Shown: in pieces, positions 1 to 8,683 of the stretch
Layout: each line of letters begins with the position of its first letter
Numbering within the stretch: the stretch's first letter is position 1
Source: an uncultured bacterium
Lineage (GTDB): Bacteria > Patescibacteria > Microgenomatia > Levybacterales > UBA12049
DNA length: 8,683 nucleotides
Direction: 5' to 3'
NCBI GenBank assembly: GCA_946885425.1
Contig: CAMPGJ010000040.1
Location: forward strand, 1-8,683
Position numbers and translations under genes: made by a program
Notes under the pieces: generated by a model
The model's input: only the letters and a program-made list of their open reading frames with translations
Database searches by the model: none
Told to the model about the DNA's origin: nothing

Positions 1-64
1 TAGTATACACATAATTCTCTGGAAGTAAAAATGTGCAACTGATACTCCTGCTAGCTTAAGAATT

Positions 65-2596
65 TTATTTTTTGAGACTTTCCTCAATATTTACTCCTAC
101 TTCCAACATCCCTTTCCACACATCTCCCACTTCTTCAACCCTCTTAACCATATTCTTAACCGTAAACTGACTTGGATGTAATGCATGGGTTACCTCTTCC
201 CAGCTAAGAGGAGCTGAAACAGTTGCTCCCTCCCTCGGCCTGATACTGTATGGCGCTGCCATTGTCTGGCCATAACGGTTTTGCAAAAAATCTATATATA
301 CTCTCTTCTGTCTCCTTTTGGGGGAACGCATAATACTTGTGTAATCTGCTGATCTCTCATGAACTAAATGAGCAATAACTTCACCGAATTTCCTTACAAT
401 CTCATGTGAATATTCCGCCCCCATAGGAATATATATATGCATCCCTGTCGCTCCTGATGTCTTTACAAAACTGGGAATAGCAGCCCTTTCCAAAACATCT
501 TTCACAACAAGAGCCGTATCAATAACCTTTTCAAAACTTATATCTTCAGGGTCCAGATCAATGACAAGATAGTCTGGATTTTCCAGATGTTGTATCTGTG
601 AATTCCAGACATTTATTTCAATACAACCAAGATTGACTGCGTACAGGAGCGACTCCATATCTTCACAAACAAAATAGCGTATTTCCTTATCCTCAGAATC
701 CGAGTACAGTGGAACAGTTTTAATCCAATCAGGGATCAAGACCTGCCTGCCGGCAGGCAGGTCTTTTTGGTAAAAAGATTTTCCATCTATTCCATCAGGA
801 AACCGGTTCAAAGACTGCGGCCGATCCTTCACATACGGAAGCATAACGTCAGCTATCTCTTTATAATAAGCAATCACATCCCCCTTAGTAATATTGTCAG
901 AAGAGAAATAAACCTTATCTAAATTTGTTAATTTAAGTTTATTGGACCCTCTTTCGTCATTGGATATTGGATATTGGATATTGGAAATTGGATATTTCTC
1001 CACCTCCTCTCCCTTGTCTTCCCTAATTCCCAAAAAAACCGGGTGCCTCATCACACCGTCTCTTGTCCACTCCGAAAAGGAAACCTCGCACATGATTTTC
1101 GGCTGAATCCACTGAACAGGCGCATTGGGGATAGGAGATGTTTGAAAAGGAGAGTCCTTTACTTTATATATATCCAATAATTCCTTCGTTGATTTGAGCG
1201 TCTTATCATCGAATCCCGTTCCCGTATGTCCGATATACGTAAGTTTTTTATTTTTATACATTCCCAAGATCAATGCGCCGAAATATTTTCTTCCTCCCCG
1301 CGGCTTCGTATACCCGCAGATAACCGCTTCTTCCCGGTACTTTGCTTTGATCTTCAGCCAATGTTTACTTCGCACATCTTCTTTATAGATACTCTGCTTT
1401 TTTTTTCCAATTATTCCTTCAATCTTCTGCTGTTTTGCCAAAACAAAAAACGCTTCACCCTTTCTCTCTACGTGATCACTGTATTGCAGCCTTTCGGTAT
1501 GGGGAATAATTTGTTTAAGTATCTCCTTCCGTTTAATGAGCGGTACATCACGTAAATCATATCCATCCAGATAAAAAAGATCAAAAATAATATAGACTAA
1601 ATTCAAATTTTTACCCTGCCTGAGCCGCGTTTGACGCGGAGCTTGCCGAAGGGTCAAATAATTCTGAATGTTTTGAAACCCGGCTCTACCATGTTCATCT
1701 AATACTGCAATCTCACCATCTAAGACACATGCATGCTGCACATTCTGTAATGCAGCAACAATAGGGGAGAACTTAACAGAAAAATCCTTACCGTTTCTCG
1801 AGTAAAGTTTAATGTTCCCATTTTCCACCTCCGCAATACCACGATAGCCATCCCACTTAATCTCAAATAACCATTCATCATCAGTAAAAGGCTCATCAAC
1901 AGATGCCGCAAGCATCGGTTTGATGTCGTGAAGCATAGATCCCGGACGAGCACTTTCTATTTTAGATAAATCTATTTTTTTGTCATTCCCGCGTAGGCGG
2001 GAATCCAGGAGGGGTGGAGATTTTAGCCGAAGAGTGGATTCCTGGTCTGCCTCCAGGAATGACAAAGTGTGAGATAATACTGAATAATCCAGCTCGGTAA
2101 CATCTTCATTCGAATTATATTCATCTTCCTTCTTAATCAAAAACCATGCATTCTCTTCCATTCCTTTTCCTTTTACCAAACTAAACTCACCCATCAGCTT
2201 CTTTCCATACAAAACAACCGACAAATGTCCCTTCTCAATCTTCTCCTCAATAATATCGTCAGTGTTCTTAGTTTTTTGTTCTCTGTTCAAAGTTGGCACT
2301 TCGTAAGTGCCTTCATCCCAAACAATCACTTCACCTGCACCATAATTTCCTTTTGGGATAGTTCCTTCAAATGTACGGTATTCCAGAGGATGATCTTCTG
2401 TCATCATAGCCAACCGTTTATCCTCCGGATTTAATGATGGTCCTTTCGGTACCGCCCAACTTTTCAAAACACCATTTACTTCAATACGGAAATCATAATG
2501 CAGCCGTCGAGCAGCATGCTTCTGCACAACAAAACGATGAGGACGGGGTTCAGGAGTAGCGTTAAACTGACGCTTTTTGAAATACTGGTCTAACAT
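65..2596 (-). CDS. ligD: Multifunctional DNA ligase D (phosphoesterase-ligase-polymerase) for non-homologous end joining
   Basis: Repairs double-strand breaks with Ku: it trims 3' ends, fills in nucleotides and seals. At 843 aa it has the size and domain order of the long Pseudomonas-type LigD. The phosphoesterase domain (about 1-160) shows H27, H33, D35, R37, H69 and Y73 with family spacing. The ATP-dependent ligase domain (about 222-530) has catalytic K247 in EIKWDGYR, E295 in LDGE, the LVYIIFDLFYLDG segment at 333-345, EGIIGK at 393-398 and WLKIK at 413-417. The archaeo-eukaryotic-primase-type polymerase domain (about 555-835) has metal-binding D680 and D682 in IDLDPED and D769 in YIDF. 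Four repeat-derived stretches lie in frame at residues 177-206, 315-328, 535-546 and 612-619; all catalytic motifs survive, so the enzyme is probably active. The ATG gives the usual N-terminus just before the phosphoesterase fold; no Shine-Dalgarno is visible. It lies 204 bp downstream of ku on the same strand. Confidence 0.96.
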   Translation of the reverse strand: MLDQYFKKRQFNATPEPRPHRFVVQKHAARRLHYDFRIEVNGVLKSWAVPKGPSLNPEDKRLAMMTEDHPLEYRTFEGTIPKGNYGAGEVIVWDEGTYEVPTLNREQKTKNTDDIIEEKIEKGHLSVVLYGKKLMGEFSLVKGKGMEENAWFLIKKEDEYNSNEDVTELDYSVLSHTLSFLEADQESTLRLKSPPLLDSRLRGNDKKIDLSKIESARPGSMLHDIKPMLAASVDEPFTDDEWLFEIKWDGYRGIAEVENGNIKLYSRNGKDFSVKFSPIVAALQNVQHACVLDGEIAVLDEHGRAGFQNIQNYLTLRQAPRQTRLRQGKNLNLVYIIFDLFYLDGYDLRDVPLIKRKEILKQIIPHTERLQYSDHVERKGEAFFVLAKQQKIEGIIGKKKQSIYKEDVRSKHWLKIKAKYREEAVICGYTKPRGGRKYFGALILGMYKNKKLTYIGHTGTGFDDKTLKSTKELLDIYKVKDSPFQTSPIPNAPVQWIQPKIMCEVSFSEWTRDGVMRHPVFLGIREDKGEEVEKYPISNIQYPISNDERGSNKLKLTNLDKVYFSSDNITKGDVIAYYKEIADVMLPYVKDRPQSLNRFPDGIDGKSFYQKDLPAGRQVLIPDWIKTVPLYSDSEDKEIRYFVCEDMESLLYAVNLGCIEINVWNSQIQHLENPDYLVIDLDPEDISFEKVIDTALVVKDVLERAAIPSFVKTSGATGMHIYIPMGAEYSHEIVRKFGEVIAHLVHERSADYTSIMRSPKRRQKRVYIDFLQNRYGQTMAAPYSIRPREGATVSAPLSWEEVTHALHPSQFTVKNMVKRVEEVGDVWKGMLEVGVNIEESLKK
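738..765. repeat. Perfect 28-bp palindrome inside the ligD polymerase domain
   Basis: Positions 738-765 read identically on both strands, with a GC-rich core CCTGCCTGCC/GGCAGGCAGG centred at 751.5. On the ligD strand it encodes DLPAGRQV (residues 612-619), placed between FYQK and PDWI, where other LigD proteins have a shorter turn. A near-copy with one mismatch lies in a spacer at 5484-5503, so this is a dispersed family and not native coding sequence. I recall this palindrome as common in uncultivated bacterial genomes. Confidence 0.9.
960..994. repeat. Five-copy heptamer tandem array (TTGGATA) within ligD
   Basis: Five consecutive 7-bp units, TTGGATA x3, TTGGAAA, TTGGATA, fill 960-994. They encode YPISNIQYPISN (residues 535-546) in the linker between the ligase and polymerase domains. 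A 7-bp period is not a codon multiple, so the peptide repeats only every 21 bp. Similar arrays with different units occur in the spacers of this window. Confidence 0.9.
1613..1654. repeat. Imperfect stem-loop repeat inserted in the ligD ligase domain
   Basis: The stretch starts ACCCT and ends AGGGT, with an inner hairpin CCGCG-TTTGA-CGCGG at 1625-1639, so it folds as an imperfect stem-loop of about 42 bp. It encodes an arginine/glutamine-rich peptide at residues 315-328, between QNYL and LVYIIFD, a place where typical LigD ligase domains have only a few residues. The basic, glutamine-rich peptide and the foldback both suggest a dispersed-repeat origin. No second copy is visible in this window. 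Confidence 0.7.
1979..2066. repeat. 88-bp two-hairpin palindromic element (MITE/BIME-like) within ligD
   Basis: Perfect 11-bp terminal inverted repeats, TTTGTCATTCC at 1979-1989 and GGAATGACAAA at 2056-2066, bound two internal hairpins: ATTCCCGC/GCGGGAAT at 1985-1992 and 1997-2004 (loop GTAG), and ATTCCTGG/CCAGGAAT at 2038-2045 and 2053-2060. It encodes residues 177-206 in the linker between the phosphoesterase and ligase domains, and the reading frame stays open throughout. The ATTCCC...GGGAAT core resembles short dispersed repeats known in other bacteria, such as neisserial dRS3. There is no transposase in the element, so any movement would need one acting in trans. Confidence 0.88.
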
Positions 2597-2800
2597 AATG
2601 ACGCAAAAAATTTGAATCCTTGACGTGCGAAGTGGGAGGTCTTTGAAACTGGCGCTTTGACTTCTTGATTATTTGACGTTTTTGAACGGATCCCACTTCA
2701 AGTATTCAAAATATCAAACATTCAAGATCAAGAACATCTCATTTCTCACTTCAAAAATTCTAACCGCAAATGGAAAATGGCAAATGGACAATGGCAAATT
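2597..2800. other. ku-ligD intergenic spacer made largely of degenerate short repeats
   Basis: This 204-bp gap separates two genes expected to be co-transcribed. It holds degenerate 7-bp-period sequence rich in TTTGA/TCAAA words (about 2640-2760), a 9-bp inverted repeat (GAAGTGGGA at 2629-2637, TCCCACTTC at 2691-2699, 53-nt loop) and a cleaner heptamer array at its right end. I see no credible ORF, Shine-Dalgarno or strong promoter in it. Whether ligD relies on read-through from ku cannot be decided from the sequence. Confidence 0.6.
2767..2800. repeat. Heptamer tandem array (CAAATGG type) next to the ku stop codon
   Basis: Units are CAAATGG, AAAATGG, CAAATGG and ACAATGG, followed by a fraying CAAATT, with a strict 7-bp period. 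The array ends directly against the ku stop codon (TAG, complement of 2801-2803). Confidence 0.85.
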
Positions 2801-3574
2801 CTAATGCACTGCCCTTTGTTCCAGACTGGCTTTTAGCAACTCCATAAGGTCTTCTGCCTTCGTAGCCACTGGCTCTTTTCCTTTGACACGGACAGTCTCT
2901 CCTTTTGATTTTGCTTCTATTATTTTTTCCAGCTCATTTTTGTATGTGTCATGAAATTGTTTGGGATCGAACTTATCAGTCAATTGTTCAATAAAAGCAA
3001 CTGCCATACCAATCTCTTTTTCTTTTAAATTTGTATCTTCCGGAAGGTTCAGCTCTTTAGTATCCCGGATATCCTGAAAGTACCGCATTTGATCCAATAC
3101 CAAAGCATCTTTACGGGGCTTTACGATTGCCACCCGTTCTCTTGTCCGCAACACAAATTTCGCTATACCAACTTTTTTTGATTTTTTTAATGCTTCCAAA
3201 AGGAGGGCATAAGATTTTTCCGCTCCTTTCGCCGGTTCCAAATAATATGGTTTCTCAAAAAACATTGAATCGATTTCTTCTTCCTCAACAAATTGCATGA
3301 TCTCTATGGACTTCGTTTTTTTTACATTGGCTTTTTTCATATCGTCTTCAGACACGACGACATAATCATCCTTATCAACCTCATATCCTTTGATAATCTC
3401 ATCATAGGGGACTTCTTTGTCTTCCACACGGCAAAACCTGGCATAACGGATTGGAGAAAGATCCTTCTTGTGAAGCATGTCTAGACTTATGGTCTTTTCC
3501 TCCGTCGCCACATACAGTTTAATGGGAATATTCACAAGCCCAAATGATAATGATCCAGACCAGATAGACCTCAT
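2801..3574 (-). CDS. ku: Ku homodimeric DNA end-binding protein (NHEJ)
   Basis: Bacterial Ku forms a homodimeric ring on DNA double-strand ends and recruits LigD. At 257 aa it is compact for the family: essentially the Ku core with a short tail. The N-terminus MRSIWSGSLSFGLVNIPIKLY is the diagnostic start of bacterial Ku and fixes the ATG. Further family blocks are the RYARFC region near residue 45, the SIEIMQFV and YYLEPAKGAEKSYALL blocks, and RERVAIVKPRKDALVLDQMRY. The C-terminus keeps the short amphipathic DLMELLKASLEQ segment, corresponding to the part of bacterial Ku implicated in LigD contact, and lacks the long lysine-rich extension of some homologues. It is the upstream partner of ligD on the same strand. 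The start has no visible Shine-Dalgarno, and I found no convincing promoter upstream. Confidence 0.96.
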   Translation of the reverse strand: MRSIWSGSLSFGLVNIPIKLYVATEEKTISLDMLHKKDLSPIRYARFCRVEDKEVPYDEIIKGYEVDKDDYVVVSEDDMKKANVKKTKSIEIMQFVEEEEIDSMFFEKPYYLEPAKGAEKSYALLLEALKKSKKVGIAKFVLRTRERVAIVKPRKDALVLDQMRYFQDIRDTKELNLPEDTNLKEKEIGMAVAFIEQLTDKFDPKQFHDTYKNELEKIIEAKSKGETVRVKGKEPVATKAEDLMELLKASLEQRAVH

Positions 3575-3581
3575 GATAAAT

Positions 3582-3763
3582 CGCAGAACTACGCAAAACT
3601 CGCACGCAGATCTAATCAGAAGTTTAAAACAAATATCTTTGATGTGAATGAAAACGCGGTAAGAAGGGTGAAAGAACCTATTGACTGATATTTTTTATTG
3701 CAGTAAGATATTTTTATTGTTATTTTCAGCGTAGTTCTGCGTAGTGTTCAGATTAGTTCTGCG
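3582..3763. repeat. Inverted CGCAGAACTACGC-type repeats flanking the ku promoter region
   Basis: CGCAGAACTACGC at 3582-3594 is matched exactly, in inverted orientation, by GCGTAGTTCTGCG at 3729-3741. A second related pair, 3605-3621 and 3747-3763, matches at 15 of 17 positions. The order of the units is not mirrored, so this is a cluster of short degenerate repeats on both strands and not one clean hairpin. The left copies begin 8 bp upstream of the ku ATG. Confidence 0.75.
3681..3709 (+). promoter_or_regulatory. Possible sigma-70-type promoter for the 96-aa gene
   Basis: TTGACT (3681-3686, five of six consensus positions) is followed after 17 bp by TAAGAT (3704-3709, four of six). Transcription would begin near 3716 and give a leader of about 115 nt. 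The region is AT-rich, so a chance match is quite possible. Confidence 0.3.
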
Positions 3764-3829
3764 AAAGCTTGCAGGACAAAAAAGCTAGAAAAACCAAACT
3801 AAATCTGAACTAACAAAAAAGATTGTAAA

Positions 3830-4120
3830 ATGAGTAAGTATAAGCAGCAATTTGAAGACATGCTCCTGCGGCACAAAGCTATTTTTGATGAATTCAAGGT
3901 ATTACATGACAAATATGCCGCCGACCCCAAAAAATATCAAAAACAATTTAACGAAGAAGGTGAGGACGTCTTGGTGCTTATCCAACGCTGGGATAGTATC
4001 CTGTGTGCAAAATCAGAAGGCGGTAAATACGGTAAATTCTCCAGCAACCTCTCTGAAAAATTCTGGGGAGAAGTCCGCACCCACTTTCCTAAGATAGATT
4101 ATGTAGGCTTAGAAAGTTAA
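3830..4120 (+). CDS. Conserved-looking hypothetical protein, 96 aa
   Basis: Function unknown. The product is soluble, highly charged and probably mostly helical: no signal peptide and no membrane segment are visible. The N-terminal half (residues 1-35) reads as a long charged helix followed by HDKYAADPKKYQKQFNEEG. The C-terminal half carries a CAKSEGGKYGKFSSNLSEKFW stretch rich in K, S, G and aromatics, then a short FPKIDYVG motif near the end. I recall similar short proteins from Patescibacteria genomes, especially in the NLSEKFW...FPKIDYVG region, but cannot verify that here. It lies divergent to ku and converges on hflX, so no operon partner suggests a role. The stop lies just before the repeat-filled gap at 4121. 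The ATG has no Shine-Dalgarno. A real gene is favoured over a shadow because no competing ORF better explains this stretch and the composition is protein-like. Confidence 0.78.
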   Translation: MSKYKQQFEDMLLRHKAIFDEFKVLHDKYAADPKKYQKQFNEEGEDVLVLIQRWDSILCAKSEGGKYGKFSSNLSEKFWGEVRTHFPKIDYVGLES

Positions 4121-4186
4121 GTCTCAAGTCTTAAAGTCGAAAGTCGTAAAGCCCTATTGCTAATTGCTCATTACTGATTGCTGATT
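4121..4186. repeat. Two adjacent short tandem repeat tracts between the 96-aa gene and hflX
   Basis: Positions 4121-4151 carry alternating 7/8-bp units beginning GTC (GTCTCAA, GTCTTAAA, GTCGAAA, GTCGTAAA). After a short CCCT junction, 4156-4186 carry four 7-bp units of ATTGCTA type (ATTGCTA, ATTGCTC, ATTACTG, ATTGCTG). The convergent gene ends are therefore separated almost entirely by repeat sequence. No rho-independent terminator hairpin is seen. Confidence 0.8.
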
Positions 4187-4188
4187 CG

Positions 4189-4221
4189 GACTTGATGACT
4201 TTATGACTTGATGACCTGACG
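4189..4221. repeat. Octamer tandem array (GACTTGAT) overlapping the 3' end of hflX
   Basis: Units GACTTGAT, GACTTTAT, GACTTGAT and GACCTGAC, plus a final GAC, run with an 8-bp period. The array overlaps the last codons of hflX: residues 367-372 (RQVIKS) and the TAA stop are read from it on the minus strand. Confidence 0.82.
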
Positions 4222-5319
4222 ACTAATACACTCCTTTATTTTTCCGATGCCTTCATCTTTCTTTACTGATATGAAGATGGGGGAGAATAGTCCGTATTTT
4301 TCTGCGATTTCTTCTTTGTTGAGATCAGGAACGGCGTCAGTCTTATTGAATACATAAATAACCTCATCAACATTTCTACCCAACTCTTTCAGGATATCCC
4401 GGACAACCCGTATTTTGGTATTCATCTCCGGATCTGATACATCAATCACATGCAAAAGCACATCGGCATGGATTGACTCCATGAGCGTTGATTTAAATGC
4501 ACTTATCAAGAGGGGAGGCAAATCCCTAATAAATCCAATCGTATCAGTCACCAAAACTTCTGCTTGCAAGTCTTCAAGATACATTTTCCCCACGCTGCTA
4601 TCGAGTGTCGCGAATAAAACATTTTTCGCCAGAACATTTTTATTTGTCAGGAGATTGAAGAGGGAACTCTTTCCCGCATTGGTATAACCAACAATAGAGA
4701 CTGTTTTGAATCCTGCCCTTTTCCGCCTATCCAACTGTTGTTCCCGGCTTTTGCTGATCTTTGCTAATTCATCAGCTATCTTCTTTTTCTGATCCCGCCA
4801 ATGACGTTTCATAAGCTCGGTATTCGTCTCACCAACACCCAAAGTCCCGATCCCTCCACCTTGCCTGGACATGATAAAACCCATACCATAGATTCTGGGC
4901 CCCATGTAATTCATCCGCGCCAGTTCAATTTGCAGCTTAGCCTCCTGTGTTGATGCATGTTTGTCAAATATATAAAGAATAAGGTCAACTCTGTCCCATA
5001 CTTCGATATCAGGTTTTGCTTTTTGCAGCTGTTCTTTAAGCGCGTGTACTTGTCTGGGCTTTACCATCGCGTTAAGGACAACAACATCTATCTCGTCATC
5101 AATAATTTTCTGGGCAACTTCAACGATTTTACCCTTACCGATATATGTCGCCATATTAGGCCTGTCCAGCTTTTGGATAATCCGGTCCGGAATCTCTGAA
5201 TCCAATGTTGAGATGAGAGTTTCCAGCTCCTCCGCCATATGCAGCGCTTTTTCTTTATTCAGCTGTGGATTAATAACATGAACAGGTAATATCCGAAGAG
5301 AACTTTTTAAATCTATCAT
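4201..5319 (-). CDS. hflX: HflX-family ribosome-associated GTPase
   Basis: HflX GTPases bind the 50S subunit, and several split stalled or stress-arrested 70S ribosomes. The 372-aa product has the HflX N-terminal domain (about 1-150) and linker helices (about 165-200). The G domain is complete: G1 GYTNAGKS (211-218), G2 T238 in FATLD, G3 DTIG (259-262), G4 NKTD (325-328) and a G5 ISVKK near 350-354. The glycine-rich HflX signature is present as GGGIGTLGVGET (154-165), but the following segment is NTELMKRHWRDQ where typical HflX has a K-L-E-x-D-R-R pattern, so it is a divergent subfamily. The ATG follows closely behind an extended -10 promoter with no Shine-Dalgarno. The last six residues and the stop are read from an octamer repeat array. 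It stands alone, divergent from the phosphotransferase gene. Confidence 0.94.
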   Translation of the reverse strand: MIDLKSSLRILPVHVINPQLNKEKALHMAEELETLISTLDSEIPDRIIQKLDRPNMATYIGKGKIVEVAQKIIDDEIDVVVLNAMVKPRQVHALKEQLQKAKPDIEVWDRVDLILYIFDKHASTQEAKLQIELARMNYMGPRIYGMGFIMSRQGGGIGTLGVGETNTELMKRHWRDQKKKIADELAKISKSREQQLDRRKRAGFKTVSIVGYTNAGKSSLFNLLTNKNVLAKNVLFATLDSSVGKMYLEDLQAEVLVTDTIGFIRDLPPLLISAFKSTLMESIHADVLLHVIDVSDPEMNTKIRVVRDILKELGRNVDEVIYVFNKTDAVPDLNKEEIAEKYGLFSPIFISVKKDEGIGKIKECISRQVIKS

Positions 5320-5328
5320 GCATTAGAC

Positions 5329-5337
5329 ATTATAACA
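5329..5337 (-). promoter_or_regulatory. Extended -10 promoter of hflX, probably leaderless
   Basis: On the minus strand, TGTTATAAT occupies 5337-5329: a perfect TATAAT with the TG motif of an extended -10, which needs little -35 help. No good -35 is visible. Nine bases separate the hexamer from the ATG, so transcription is expected to start 2-4 nt before the start codon, giving an almost leaderless message. Confidence 0.72.
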
Positions 5338-5429
5338 CTAACCCTCTAGTTCGTAACAGCTCACTAGTGTGGCAGAACCGTCATTGCGAGGCGAGCACAG
5401 CGAACAAAGCAATCTCGTCCACCAAAAAG

Positions 5430-5528
5430 GTCATCCTGAACTCGTTTCAGGATCTAATAATTCCTTAGAAAATTGTAGAATGACCTGCCCGCCGGCAGGC
5501 AGGGATGCTGAAATAAATTCAGCATGAC
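5430..5528. mobile_element. Inner two-hairpin element nested in the outer one
   Basis: The ends are GTCAT (5430-5434) and ATGAC (5524-5528). Two hairpins sit at the termini: ATCCTGAA/TTCAGGAT (5433-5440 and 5446-5453) and ATGCTGAA/TTCAGCAT (5505-5512 and 5518-5525). The plan matches the element in ligD, but the stem sequences are unrelated. It lies wholly inside the GTCATTGCGAG element, and a GC-rich palindrome interrupts it. Confidence 0.75.
5484..5503. repeat. Innermost GC-rich palindrome, near-copy of the one in ligD
   Basis: CCTGCCCGCC/GGCAGGCAGG differs at a single base from the core of the 738-765 palindrome. Here it sits inside the inner two-hairpin element, which sits inside the outer element. 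Confidence 0.85.
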
Positions 5529-5598
5529 ATATGGACCAGATTGCCGCGCTCCTACGTCACTCGCAATGACGGCTAAACGCTAGTCTTCTCATCCTTCT

Positions 5599-5652
5599 TA
5601 GACCCTAGACCCTACCCTAGACCCTAGACCCTAGACCCTAGACCCTAGACCC
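5599..5652. repeat. TAGACCC heptamer array upstream of the phosphotransferase gene
   Basis: Seven exact TAGACCC units and one 5-bp truncated unit (TACCC at 5613-5617) run without gaps. The array ends 22 bp before the ATG at 5675. It resembles a telomere-type repeat but is short and internal, and belongs with the other heptamer arrays of this window. Confidence 0.93.
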
Positions 5653-5668
5653 TTCTAAAATATATACT
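5639..5668 (+). promoter_or_regulatory. Probable leaderless promoter of the phosphotransferase gene
   Basis: TATACT at 5663-5668 (five of six to TATAAT) ends exactly six bases before the ATG at 5675, so the expected start site is the A of the start codon. Spaced 18 bp upstream, TAGACC at 5639-5644, part of the heptamer array, matches TTGACA at four of six positions. No Shine-Dalgarno is present. The -10 is reasonably convincing; the -35 is inference. Confidence 0.55.
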
Positions 5669-5674
5669 TAATAT

Positions 5675-8287
5675 ATGACACAGAAGCTGGTGTATCTATT
5701 TCCTCAGGACTCAGAGTCCACCATCGCGGAAGTTGGTGGGAAAGGCTTGTCACTTATAGTGGGAAGTGGGGCAGGATTACCCGTTCCCCCGGGATTTATT
5801 TTATCTGCTAATTTCTTCTCTGCATGGATGACACAACTCCAGAAGACGAAGGCTTGGACGGCGTTTCTTAAAGCAAACGATAAAGAGTTGCAAAGTACTT
5901 GCGATAATCTAAAAAAAGAAGCCTTAACATGCATCTTCACCTCAGAACAAAAAGACCTAGTGAAGGAATCTCTGAAAAATTATCCTGCGCATACACTATT
6001 TGCTGTCCGCTCATCTTCTCCTGAAGAAGATCTGGAAGGGGCATCATTTGCAGGCGGTTATGAAACAGTACTTGGCGTCTCACCAGATCATTTGGAAACA
6101 GCTATTAAAAAAGCATTTGCCTCCTGTCTGGATTACCGCGTCGTTATGTATAAGAAGGAGAACGGATTTGCTATAACCAAACCTAAAATAGCTGTCATAA
6201 TCCAGGAGCAGATAGCCAGTCACATCTCCGGAGTGGGATTTTCTCTCAACCCTGTTACCAACAATTATGATGAAGCAGTATTTAATGCCAATTGGGGACT
6301 GGGGGAGACGGTTGTCGCCGGTCTGGCAACTCCGGACACCTATACTGTTGATAAAGTATCAGAAGAAATAAAGCAAAAAACAATCGGTACAAAAGAGCTC
6401 TCTCTTTGGCTAGGTGCAAAAGGCGGCACAGAAAAGAAACTTCACTATAAAAGTAAAGAAAGCACATTGTCCGACAGACAAGTTATTGAACTAACAAAAC
6501 TAATTAAGAATGTGGAAGAGTATTATAAAAAGCCAATGGATATAGAATGGGCATATGCAAACAATCACCTATTCTTATTACAAGCAAGACCTATCACGTC
6601 GTACATACCAATGGCACCAGATATGCTCACCCAACCGGGAGAAAAAAAGCGCCTCTATCTGGATGTGACTGTCACTGCCCAAGGCATGAACAAACCCGTC
6701 TCCAAAATGGGTACATCAATGTTCCGCCAGCTTCTGAAAATAATTGGCAGGATCATCGCCGGACGCGATATCACACGCAACATTGATACAACAGTAGGCT
6801 GGATCAGCGATGGGAAAATATTTATCAATCTTTCTAATGCTTTTGTTATAGCGGGCAAAAAGAGAATTTTGGAGATACTCGCTATTATCGATCCACTCGG
6901 TGTAAAAGCTATAGAACCGCTTGACGAAAACATATATAAATCATCTACCCCAAAGTTGCTTCTCTTGCCGTTTATTCTTCTGTTACGGTTACCCGAAATT
7001 CTATTCTTTATCCATCAGGCAAAAAGTAATCCGGATAGGACACACCTGCATGTTCAAAAAAGTCTTAAATCATTTGAACAAGAAAGTAAAAACATCGCTG
7101 AAGAAGATATGCCGCTTCATCAACTTATTGATGTATTGATTCATAAAATGTTTTTTCAAGTTTTCAAAAAAACAGTACCACTAACAGTTGCCTCACGCAT
7201 CGCTCTAAATAAAATGAAAAGCATAGTAGGGGATGATCCTGAAGTAAGTACATTAGAACTTGCCTTACCTCATAATATGACAATAGAAATGGGTCTGGCA
7301 CTCTCACATGTCGCAAGACTCCTCCCTGATAATCTCACTCAAGAACAATTAGATGAAAAGATTGATAAGAAGCAATTACCTCAGGATTTTCTCATTGCCT
7401 GGCAGCTCTTCCTGGATAGATATGGGCATAGAGGAGCATCTGAAATAGACCTCGCAGCGCCCAGGTACCGAGATAACCCGCGTCTTCTTCTCGATCTTCT
7501 TCTCTCCATGAAAAACACAGATGGAGAGGACGCTCAAACAAAATTTGAGAACAATCAACAAGAGCGCAAAAAAGCATACGAAAGGCTTCATGAGAAACTG
7601 CTTGCTAAAAACCAACGCCTGGCTCAAACATTTGCCAAAGAATATCATTTCTTTGAAACCTTTGGGGGATATAGAGAAACACACAAATTCTATTTGGTTC
7701 TCACCGTCGCTCTTGTAAGGCAAAAAGTTCTCAAACAAGCAAATATGCTCGTCGCCTCAAATCGTCTGGATGAAGTAAACCAAGTTTTCGATCTAACCAT
7801 TGATCAACTGGACCAAGCCAGGCATGACACATCTCTAGACCTAAGAAAGCTTGCGCAGGATAATACTACTTTTCTCAAAAAACTATCGAGCGTCCCTCAA
7901 GCTCCATCCATAATTGACTCCAGGGGATTTATCCCCAGACCTCCTACACCGCCTCTGCATAAAGGAGAACATGCAGGCACGCCTATCTCACCCGGCATTA
8001 TCAGAGGTAGAGTAAAAGTCCTTCATACACCGGATGAAAAGCCATTAGAAAAAGGAGAGATTCTCGTCGCCAGAGCCACTGACCCGGGGTGGACTCCACT
8101 TTTTGTGAATGCAGCCGGCCTCATACTGGAAATCGGCGGCTCACTCCAACATGGAGCATTGGTCGCCCGGGAATACGGATTGCCATGCGTAGCAGGAATT
8201 GAAAACGCAACAAGTTTATGGAAAGATGGCACACTGATTGAAATAAACGGCGCCTCAGGAATCATACGAACCATAAAAGAGATTTGA
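5675..8287 (+). CDS. PEP synthase/rifampin-phosphotransferase-like ATP-dependent dikinase, substrate unknown
   Basis: Family members transfer the beta-phosphate of ATP through a swivelling phosphohistidine to a substrate. The ATP-grasp domain (about 1-312) shows GGKG with K23, R112 in VRSSSPEEDLEGASFAGGYET, ANWGLGE near residue 210, and E291, Q303 and R305 in DIEWA...LLQARPIT. A largely helical middle domain (about 320-750) begins YLDVTVTAQGMNKPVSKMG and has a hydrophobic leucine-rich stretch near 430-450. The phosphohistidine domain (about 767-870) carries the catalytic histidine H826 in GGSLQHGALVAREYG. The C-terminal PEP/pyruvate-binding barrel of true PEP synthase and PPDK is absent. Length, domain order and histidine position closely match rifampin phosphotransferase (RPH; about 867 aa, H825), and B. 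subtilis YvkC is a similar uncharacterised case. The drug or other substrate cannot be inferred. Residues 752-766 are a proline-rich linker. Confidence 0.9.
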   Translation: MTQKLVYLFPQDSESTIAEVGGKGLSLIVGSGAGLPVPPGFILSANFFSAWMTQLQKTKAWTAFLKANDKELQSTCDNLKKEALTCIFTSEQKDLVKESLKNYPAHTLFAVRSSSPEEDLEGASFAGGYETVLGVSPDHLETAIKKAFASCLDYRVVMYKKENGFAITKPKIAVIIQEQIASHISGVGFSLNPVTNNYDEAVFNANWGLGETVVAGLATPDTYTVDKVSEEIKQKTIGTKELSLWLGAKGGTEKKLHYKSKESTLSDRQVIELTKLIKNVEEYYKKPMDIEWAYANNHLFLLQARPITSYIPMAPDMLTQPGEKKRLYLDVTVTAQGMNKPVSKMGTSMFRQLLKIIGRIIAGRDITRNIDTTVGWISDGKIFINLSNAFVIAGKKRILEILAIIDPLGVKAIEPLDENIYKSSTPKLLLLPFILLLRLPEILFFIHQAKSNPDRTHLHVQKSLKSFEQESKNIAEEDMPLHQLIDVLIHKMFFQVFKKTVPLTVASRIALNKMKSIVGDDPEVSTLELALPHNMTIEMGLALSHVARLLPDNLTQEQLDEKIDKKQLPQDFLIAWQLFLDRYGHRGASEIDLAAPRYRDNPRLLLDLLLSMKNTDGEDAQTKFENNQQERKKAYERLHEKLLAKNQRLAQTFAKEYHFFETFGGYRETHKFYLVLTVALVRQKVLKQANMLVASNRLDEVNQVFDLTIDQLDQARHDTSLDLRKLAQDNTTFLKKLSSVPQAPSIIDSRGFIPRPPTPPLHKGEHAGTPISPGIIRGRVKVLHTPDEKPLEKGEILVARATDPGWTPLFVNAAGLILEIGGSLQHGALVAREYGLPCVAGIENATSLWKDGTLIEINGASGIIRTIKEI

Positions 8288-8290
8288 GAT

Positions 8291-8674
8291 TTATACATCA
8301 TACATCTGTTTCTTCTGATTCCCCAGTAACTTTAAGAGCATATAATTTGTCGGAATAAAAACAACTATTGTAATAAGCACGATCCCCAATATGGTTCGCA
8401 TAGGATTAGAAAAATGATCCAGATAAAATAAAAACGTACGGCAATTATCTATAACATGGACACAGTTGGTTGTATCATGAGGACCCGCAAAAAAATAGGT
8501 GAGAGAAGCTGCTACTGCAGTAAAAATACATGCGCCTATCCAGGCTGTTTTGTGAATTACTTTTTCTTTTATTATGCCAATGAATAGAAATGGAATCATA
8601 AAAACATGATACGATGTGATCAGGAAATCTTTTGTGGAATAATTGCCTGTAAATAAATAATCAGTCAACCCCAT
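8291..8674 (-). CDS. Small integral membrane protein with three predicted helices, possibly 5'-truncated
   Basis: Function unknown. The 127-aa product shows three hydrophobic segments at about residues 17-35, 43-63 and 92-114. The loop between helices 2 and 3 contains two cysteines (C71 and C78) in NCVHVIDNC, which could form a disulphide if that loop is extracytoplasmic. The tail (LGNQKKQMYDV) is mildly basic, and the inside-positive rule would favour a cytoplasmic C-terminus. No family is recognised with confidence. The reading frame stays open upstream of this ATG to the window edge (three further codons) and no Shine-Dalgarno precedes it, so the true start may lie outside. It converges on the phosphotransferase gene with only 3 bp between the two stop codons, and no terminator hairpin separates them. 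Confidence 0.75.
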   Translation of the reverse strand: MGLTDYLFTGNYSTKDFLITSYHVFMIPFLFIGIIKEKVIHKTAWIGACIFTAVAASLTYFFAGPHDTTNCVHVIDNCRTFLFYLDHFSNPMRTILGIVLITIVVFIPTNYMLLKLLGNQKKQMYDV

Positions 8675-8683
8675 AAAACTTTT

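Follow-up and report, generated by a model that had tools for sequence, protein, structure and literature searches.

In-frame repeats of several families within the ligD gene of a bacterium that is probably a member of the Patescibacteria

The window analysed here, an 8,683-nucleotide (nt) stretch of an uncultured bacterium (contig CAMPGJ010000040.1, positions 1 to 8,683), carries a gene for LigD, the three-domain enzyme of bacterial non-homologous end joining, whose open reading frame (ORF) holds four different short repeats and is uninterrupted over its full length. A sequence-only reading of this DNA had reported the four repeats (Elements A to D) as lying in frame in the gene; their coordinates proved exact, the frame is open and hairpins with long arms exceed the chance level. 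Three of the four, A, B and D, are dispersed repeat families of Patescibacteria. We think it likely that scattered repeats of this kind inserted in ligD and persisted at sites where neither frame nor fold was lost, which would make them passengers and ligD a permissive target.

Each element has its own DNA structure (Table 1). Element A is a 90-nt unit in which two inner hairpins, one of them with GTAG in its loop, are enclosed by an 11-nt terminal inverted repeat (TTTGTCATTCC / GGAATGACAAA). Element B is a CCCTTCGGCAAGCTC...CTCAGG repeat split by a 13-nt palindrome (CGCGTCAAACGCG) that sits between GCTC direct repeats; elsewhere, 24 of 32 copies of the B core run directly into AGGG and the rest are mostly near variants, and B in ligD is a repeat nested within a repeat. 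Element C was delimited by Tandem Repeats Finder as 5.4 copies of ATTGGAT (plus strand) with 93% matches at 959-996, and palindrome D has the core CCTGCCTGCCGGCAGGCAGG. All elements are stop-free in the frame used, D in all six frames. The gene contains three hairpins with arms of at least 8 nt and loops of at most 8 nt, compared with 0.39 expected from 100 first-order simulations, and one with arms of at least 10 nt (palindrome D), compared with 0.01 expected. DNA folding gave z-scores of -3.8 for A, -2.8 for B and -5.7 for D; the tandem array C does not fold (z -1.0). A candidate fifth element, the stem-loop E (z -4.0), adds three to four residues relative to the two nearest LigD relatives and is as long or longer in 5 of 120 LigDs, but it was found in none of 80 genomes and is not confirmed as a dispersed repeat.

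The LigD protein appears sound around these additions. Pfam recovered all three domains (phosphoesterase, residues 25-142; ligase, 227-417 and 436-528; polymerase, 570-827), and the protein scored above the cut-offs of four NCBIfam models (TIGR02776, 544.7 bits against 373.2; TIGR02777, 190.6 against 144; TIGR02778, 238.2 against 214.7; TIGR02779, 298.3 against 227.75) and under those of NF004628 (751 against 895) and other longer LigD models. The conserved stretches are intact, as judged by long runs of invariant columns, some of which we take to be catalytic, in an alignment of 20 LigDs that includes the window's own. The earlier claim of four different repeats with the conserved motifs unbroken is thereby borne out, and we infer that the window LigD would work as a protein.

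We then compared the protein with the best 120 of 7998 LigD relatives. Exact words of the four peptides occur in none of these 120, so no relative among them carries the peptides without the DNA repeats. The nearest LigD among the matches listed (P0001, 66-71% identical) is without all four peptides, and P0002 is without those of A, B and D. At sites B and D no relative has as many residues as the window protein, whereas 38 of the 120 equal or exceed its residue count at site A and 111 do so at site C. The sequence-only reading had called all four segments insertions: on these alignments the term is clear for B and D, and A and C lie in linkers of naturally varying length. Relative to both P0001 and P0002, D adds only five residues (15 nt) for a palindrome of 28 nt, which suggests, as far as protein alignments can tell, that part of the target disappeared or that the palindrome was shortened at its ends. 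Matches to a motif list in four relatives (P0031, P0056, P0086 and P0094) were short words that we judged to be chance. P0002, which has a probable false N-terminal extension, carries a different repeat-like peptide (RPLPLGKGQGEG) at residues about 175-190, in its phosphoesterase domain; LigD may therefore have been struck independently by another repeat family.

A structure model predicted from the 20-row alignment was weak (mean pLDDT, the per-residue confidence, 71.5; pTM, the global score, 0.39), with confidence below 50 at residues 158-206, 531-552 and 591-620. Because the model is weak and the stretch 591-620 also spans conserved polymerase sequence, only A and C can safely be assigned to linkers. 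B lies within the ligase domain as first described and D within the polymerase domain; the earlier placement of the repeats, for the most part in linkers and loops, is supported.

Repeats A, B and D recur in many Patescibacteria genomes. The exact 20-nt core of D was present in 85 of 379 such genomes, with at most 25 copies in each. In 80 of these 85 palindrome-bearing genomes, the A hairpin (ATTCCCGCNNNNGCGGGAAT) was found in 32 and the B core in 35; the highest A count, 74 copies, was in a genome of 0.6 Mb. Palindrome-negative genomes contained the A hairpin in 20 of 75 and the B core in 11 of 75, these 75 being the first by number of 294, a non-random sample from which the five genomes with a one-gene LigD were set apart. 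B therefore clusters with D (35/80 vs 11/75, p 9e-5), and clustering of A with D is weak at best (32/80 vs 20/75, p 0.09); genome completeness was not given, so absences are soft. Backward-read controls for A, B and D returned 0 in every row shown. The paired arrangement of Element A also recurs, with A hairpins 33-42 nt apart in two genomes (G118 and G175).

To place these copies relative to genes, we read D copies from 30 of the 85 genomes (first-listed places) and A and B copies from 30 of the 32 and 30 of the 35 positive genomes, respectively, at a single locus per genome, merging copies with identical flanks before counting. By a crude long-ORF rule, 8 of 78 D copies, 11 of 35 A copies and 17 of 32 B copies fell within long ORFs; by a stop-to-stop rule the figure for D was 10 of 78. 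That 68 to 70 of the 78 D copies lie outside long ORFs is most simply explained if the repeats land in many places. Pfam scanning covered 29 of the 33 distinct long-ORF genes (L239, L243, L261 and L263 were left out) and found domains in 24 of the 29. The repeat-bearing genes encode DnaE, ThrRS (twice, with different repeats), Fpg (twice), ValRS, CysRS, a LeuRS-like synthetase, MnmA, TsaD, MiaA, UvrC, RNase Y, ScpA, GAPDH, malic enzyme and others. Six of these proteins were aligned to solved structures, and in five (TsaD, Fpg, DnaE, ValRS and MnmA) the repeat peptide is a gap-flanked insertion. The frames vary: D is translated elsewhere as LPAGRQ, PACRQA or CLPAGR, and B, like D, is not tied to a single frame. 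The Fpg of locus L101 gains five residues for a 20-nt D core. In this fpg gene of genome G182 (L101/L237, G182:C31), D stands at the zinc-finger end and is accompanied by an in-frame B, which shows that two families can share a gene outside the window as well; among the genes read, ligD alone has four repeats. Two in-frame B repeats were also seen in the ORF of the LeuRS-like synthetase (L242, G330:C23), which has a NUDIX match between the synthetase domains.

These observations fit a scheme in which the host would be a repeat-rich bacterium, probably one of the Patescibacteria, where the unrelated short palindromic families A, B and D and the heptamer array C became embedded in ligD. Copies would be retained if the net change in length was a multiple of three, the frame used was stop-free and the added residues fell in linkers or loops. 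As a multi-domain protein LigD would be a tolerant target and not the cause, and selection may act only by purging harmful copies.

Several observations weigh against this scheme or soften it. The exact 19-nt pattern of heptamer C was found in 0 of 80 genomes, and C could have grown in place. Dispersal in the host organism itself is represented by a single intergenic D copy (95%, 5482-5503, plus strand, amid other hairpins in the same window) and several other hairpins and arrays. All four repeats of the window genes lie in ligD and none in four other genes (4797 bp, with the 127-residue ORF at 8291-8674 left out of the count), for which a uniform model applied after the fact gives P 0.014. 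The genomes used for comparison include no close one: in sets of 379 and 288 genomes, the highest identity among HflX matches at E 1e-90 or better was 51% along most of the protein, or 54% along a part. Phylum names among HflX relatives are mixed, two at 76% (P0142 and P0156) having the source name 'Patescibacteria group bacterium' and those at 74% and 68% being named Limnocylindrales and Sulfotelmatobacter; a further HflX relative (P0121) is 97% identical. Among the other repeat-bearing genes, UvrC, the sixth protein aligned to a solved structure, could not be judged; the elements at L221, L223 and L254 are near the ORF end and may not belong to the real coding sequence; and DnaK (L264) has almost no extra length at its repeat. 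Finally, the two halves of LigD are both present, in adjacent frames that are broken or split, in one genome with 12 palindromes (G072).

The sequence-only reading had seen a suggestive pairing between the repeats and an end-joining enzyme. In its strongest form, this would mean that the repeats were captured at double-strand breaks by the host's end joining and that ligD was hit often through that pathway, which we consider improbable. The adjacency of ku and ligD would suit such capture, as would protein gains below the palindrome length in LigD (15 vs 28 nt) and in Fpg, as if the joint had lost bases, and the presence of both LigD halves in G072. Around 77 D copies there was no clear excess of target-site duplication (at least 3 nt in five copies, against a permuted mean of 1.7 and maximum of 7), which is also compatible with it, and the available text of a published survey places many intragenic repetitive extragenic palindromes (REPs) in replication and repair genes, including one DNA ligase (PMC3733652). 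However, a one-gene LigD above the family cut-off was found in only 5 of the 379 Patescibacteria genomes and in 0 of the 85 with palindromes. Those five are repeat-poor, with neither D nor B and with A as a single copy in just one of them, although they are too few to establish avoidance (Fisher p 0.59 for D). By our own grouping, 8 of the 24 genes with Pfam domains serve translation and 4 replication or repair, and repair genes were rejected as favoured targets on this count; metabolic genes are hit as well. The repeats have spread in many genomes without LigD, and the data lend no support to a special pairing with end joining. Nor does ligD emerge as a general hot spot in Patescibacteria: among 17 other LigD-family loci (L175-L191, five of them one-gene LigDs), three had hairpins with arms of 8 nt or more (five hairpins in all), none of them a window element, in a scan that left out L188 (contig cut), covered L180 in part and used a stretch of each locus that did not include the phosphoesterase end. 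The cores of A, B, C and D were absent from all 17 loci.

A REP-associated tyrosine transposase (RAYT) might instead move the elements as REP, bacterial interspersed mosaic element (BIME) or miniature inverted-repeat transposable element (MITE)-like units, with ligD as a random target. Such an enzyme would supply the mover and is compatible with the repeats being passengers; we regard it as possible, if rather unlikely. Element A, with its terminal inverted repeats, resembles a REP doublet, and its paired hairpins recur in G118 and G175. Of 80 genomes, 54 carry a Y1 transposase gene (PF01797), whose number shows a weak correlation with the copy number of A (rho 0.28) and of D (rho 0.35). The gene was present in 26 of the 32 genomes with A and in 28 of the 48 without it (p 0.05), which we count against the proposal, and one genome with 21 A copies (G240, completeness not given) had no Y1 gene that we could find. 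At the 30 Y1 loci read, of about 150 matches listed, neither the exact A hairpin nor the 14-nt core of the palindrome nor the B core was nearby, and a loose A piece of 7-8 nt occurred at 13 of the 30, compared with 8.0 in shuffles (maximum 14). Heptamer C would also be left unexplained. A further reading, which we consider rather unlikely, envisages a phylum-wide pool of several palindrome families that enter essential genes in frame, among them those for the replicative polymerase, tRNA synthetases, and tRNA-modification and repair enzymes, through break repair or template switching instead of classical transposition. It draws on the lack of clear target duplication, the apparent loss of a few target bases and occasional nested palindromes, for which we have single cases of D within a B repeat (L138) and D within a longer palindrome (L142). 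D showed no preference for hairpin tips (77 copies with 30-nt flanks; mean longest stem 4.64 vs 4.54 permuted).

The segments could also have been selected as useful flexible linkers and loops of LigD, the repeats serving only as raw DNA. A and C do lie in linkers of widely varying length and low model confidence, but the same peptides occur in none of the best 120 relatives and recur in unrelated proteins as translated DNA repeats, and B and D lie within catalytic domains, so we give this little credence. Least credible of all is a misassembly of repeats into ligD. The DNA is likely of metagenomic or draft origin, yet an artefact would require four separate joints, all in frame and with the flanking LigD intact, and many other genomes show a like pattern.

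In-frame palindromes within genes are best known from Rickettsia. Rickettsia palindromic elements (RPEs) are described, in the available text of two papers, as sequences of about 100-150 bp that lie in frame within unrelated genes, preserve the frame and encode a conserved peptide each (PMC10969869, PMC3767692). The window elements are like RPEs in being in-frame palindromic insertions in unrelated genes that are absent from homologues; they differ in length (20-90 bp), in the use of several frames by D and B, and in a host that is not Rickettsia. A 2013 study describes, in its available text, intragenic GTAG/CGTC REPs, palindromes of 20-40 bp that are often dimers and in some cases lie in frame within ORFs, with targets that include uvrA (two inserts), dnaE and the DNA ligase of Opitutus terrae (PMC3733652). 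The window palindromes share with these their in-frame position and the presence of repair and replication genes among the targets, and differ in that three families and a tandem array occupy one gene and in the probable host phylum, Patescibacteria, which the same available text does not name (PMC3733652). With REP/BIME doublets and MITEs, Element A has in common its paired inverted hairpins and terminal inverted repeats, although no linked transposase gene was demonstrated for it. The window LigD, with its three domains and adjacent ku, is like that of bacterial non-homologous end joining except for four extra segments encoded by repeats. We found no earlier report of such repeats in Patescibacteria in a literature search whose coverage was thin for subscription papers and without preprints; in the available text of the Patescibacteria papers checked, 'palindromic' occurred in the CRISPR sense only. 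The ligD gene adds a new and heavily loaded case to a known phenomenon, in a group for which we found the case undescribed, and one not shown to be special to a repair gene.

Several families in core genes across Patescibacteria would provide a second large system for studying repeat movement and protein tolerance, and would let one ask whether genome-reduced bacteria gain protein segments through repeats. Were a pool of pasted palindromes indeed at work, it would steadily provide very small genomes with new stretches of protein, and ligD would be the most heavily loaded gene seen. For annotation, peptides like LPAGRQ or DSRLRGND in unrelated proteins should be taken as translated repeats, not domains.

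Table 1. Repeats in ligD and genes of the window
Feature	Position	Strand	Description
Element A, two-hairpin repeat	1979-2068	minus	residues 177-206, phosphoesterase-ligase linker
Element B	1613-1654	minus	residues 315-328, ligase-domain loop
Element C, heptamer array	959-994	minus	residues 535-546, ligase-polymerase linker
Element D, perfect 28-nt palindrome (738-765)	740-763	minus	residues 612-619 (DLPAGRQV), polymerase domain
Candidate Element E, 17-nt stem-loop GGCACTTACGAAGTGCC	2295-2311	minus	phosphoesterase domain
ligD, 843 amino acids	65-2596	minus	ORF; Pfam; NCBIfam TIGR02776/02777/02778/02779 above cut-off; PDB relatives
ku	2801-3574	minus	TIGR02772, match 2-251 to 1-259
96-amino-acid ORF			window gene, besides ku, ligD and hflX
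hflX	4201-5319	minus	
PEP-synthase-like gene	5675-8287	plus	
127-amino-acid ORF	8291-8674		

The other genes of the window lack such additions. Ku, whose gene immediately precedes ligD and shares its orientation, has no net extra length relative to the TIGR02772 family model, and HflX and the PEP-synthase-like protein have no insertions relative to 20 relatives each. A PPTPPLHKGE segment of the PEP-synthase gene was considered as a repeat and rejected: it has the same length in the eight relatives displayed and is not an insertion relative to the 20. The sister organism behind LigD P0001 and HflX P0123 probably has the gene order of the window. In three of the genomes compared (G488, G427 and G489) the hflX frames contain 12, 5 and 3 in-frame TGA codons, as expected if TGA encodes an amino acid there.

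The intergenic DNA of the window is itself rich in repeats. The interval 5340-5670 appears by eye to hold nested inverted repeats, the outer pair being CGTCATTGCGAG...CTCGCAATGACG, with inner hairpins at 5433-5453 and 5505-5525 and palindrome D, followed by an eight-copy TAGACCC array. Further intergenic tandem arrays of 7- or 8-nt units, the unit different in each, lie at 2766-2799 and 4126-4224. Between ku and the 96-residue ORF, at 3581-3770, related units of the GTAGTTCTGCG type occur by eye in both orientations, and Tandem Repeats Finder marks short arrays at 3581-3604 and 3725-3745.

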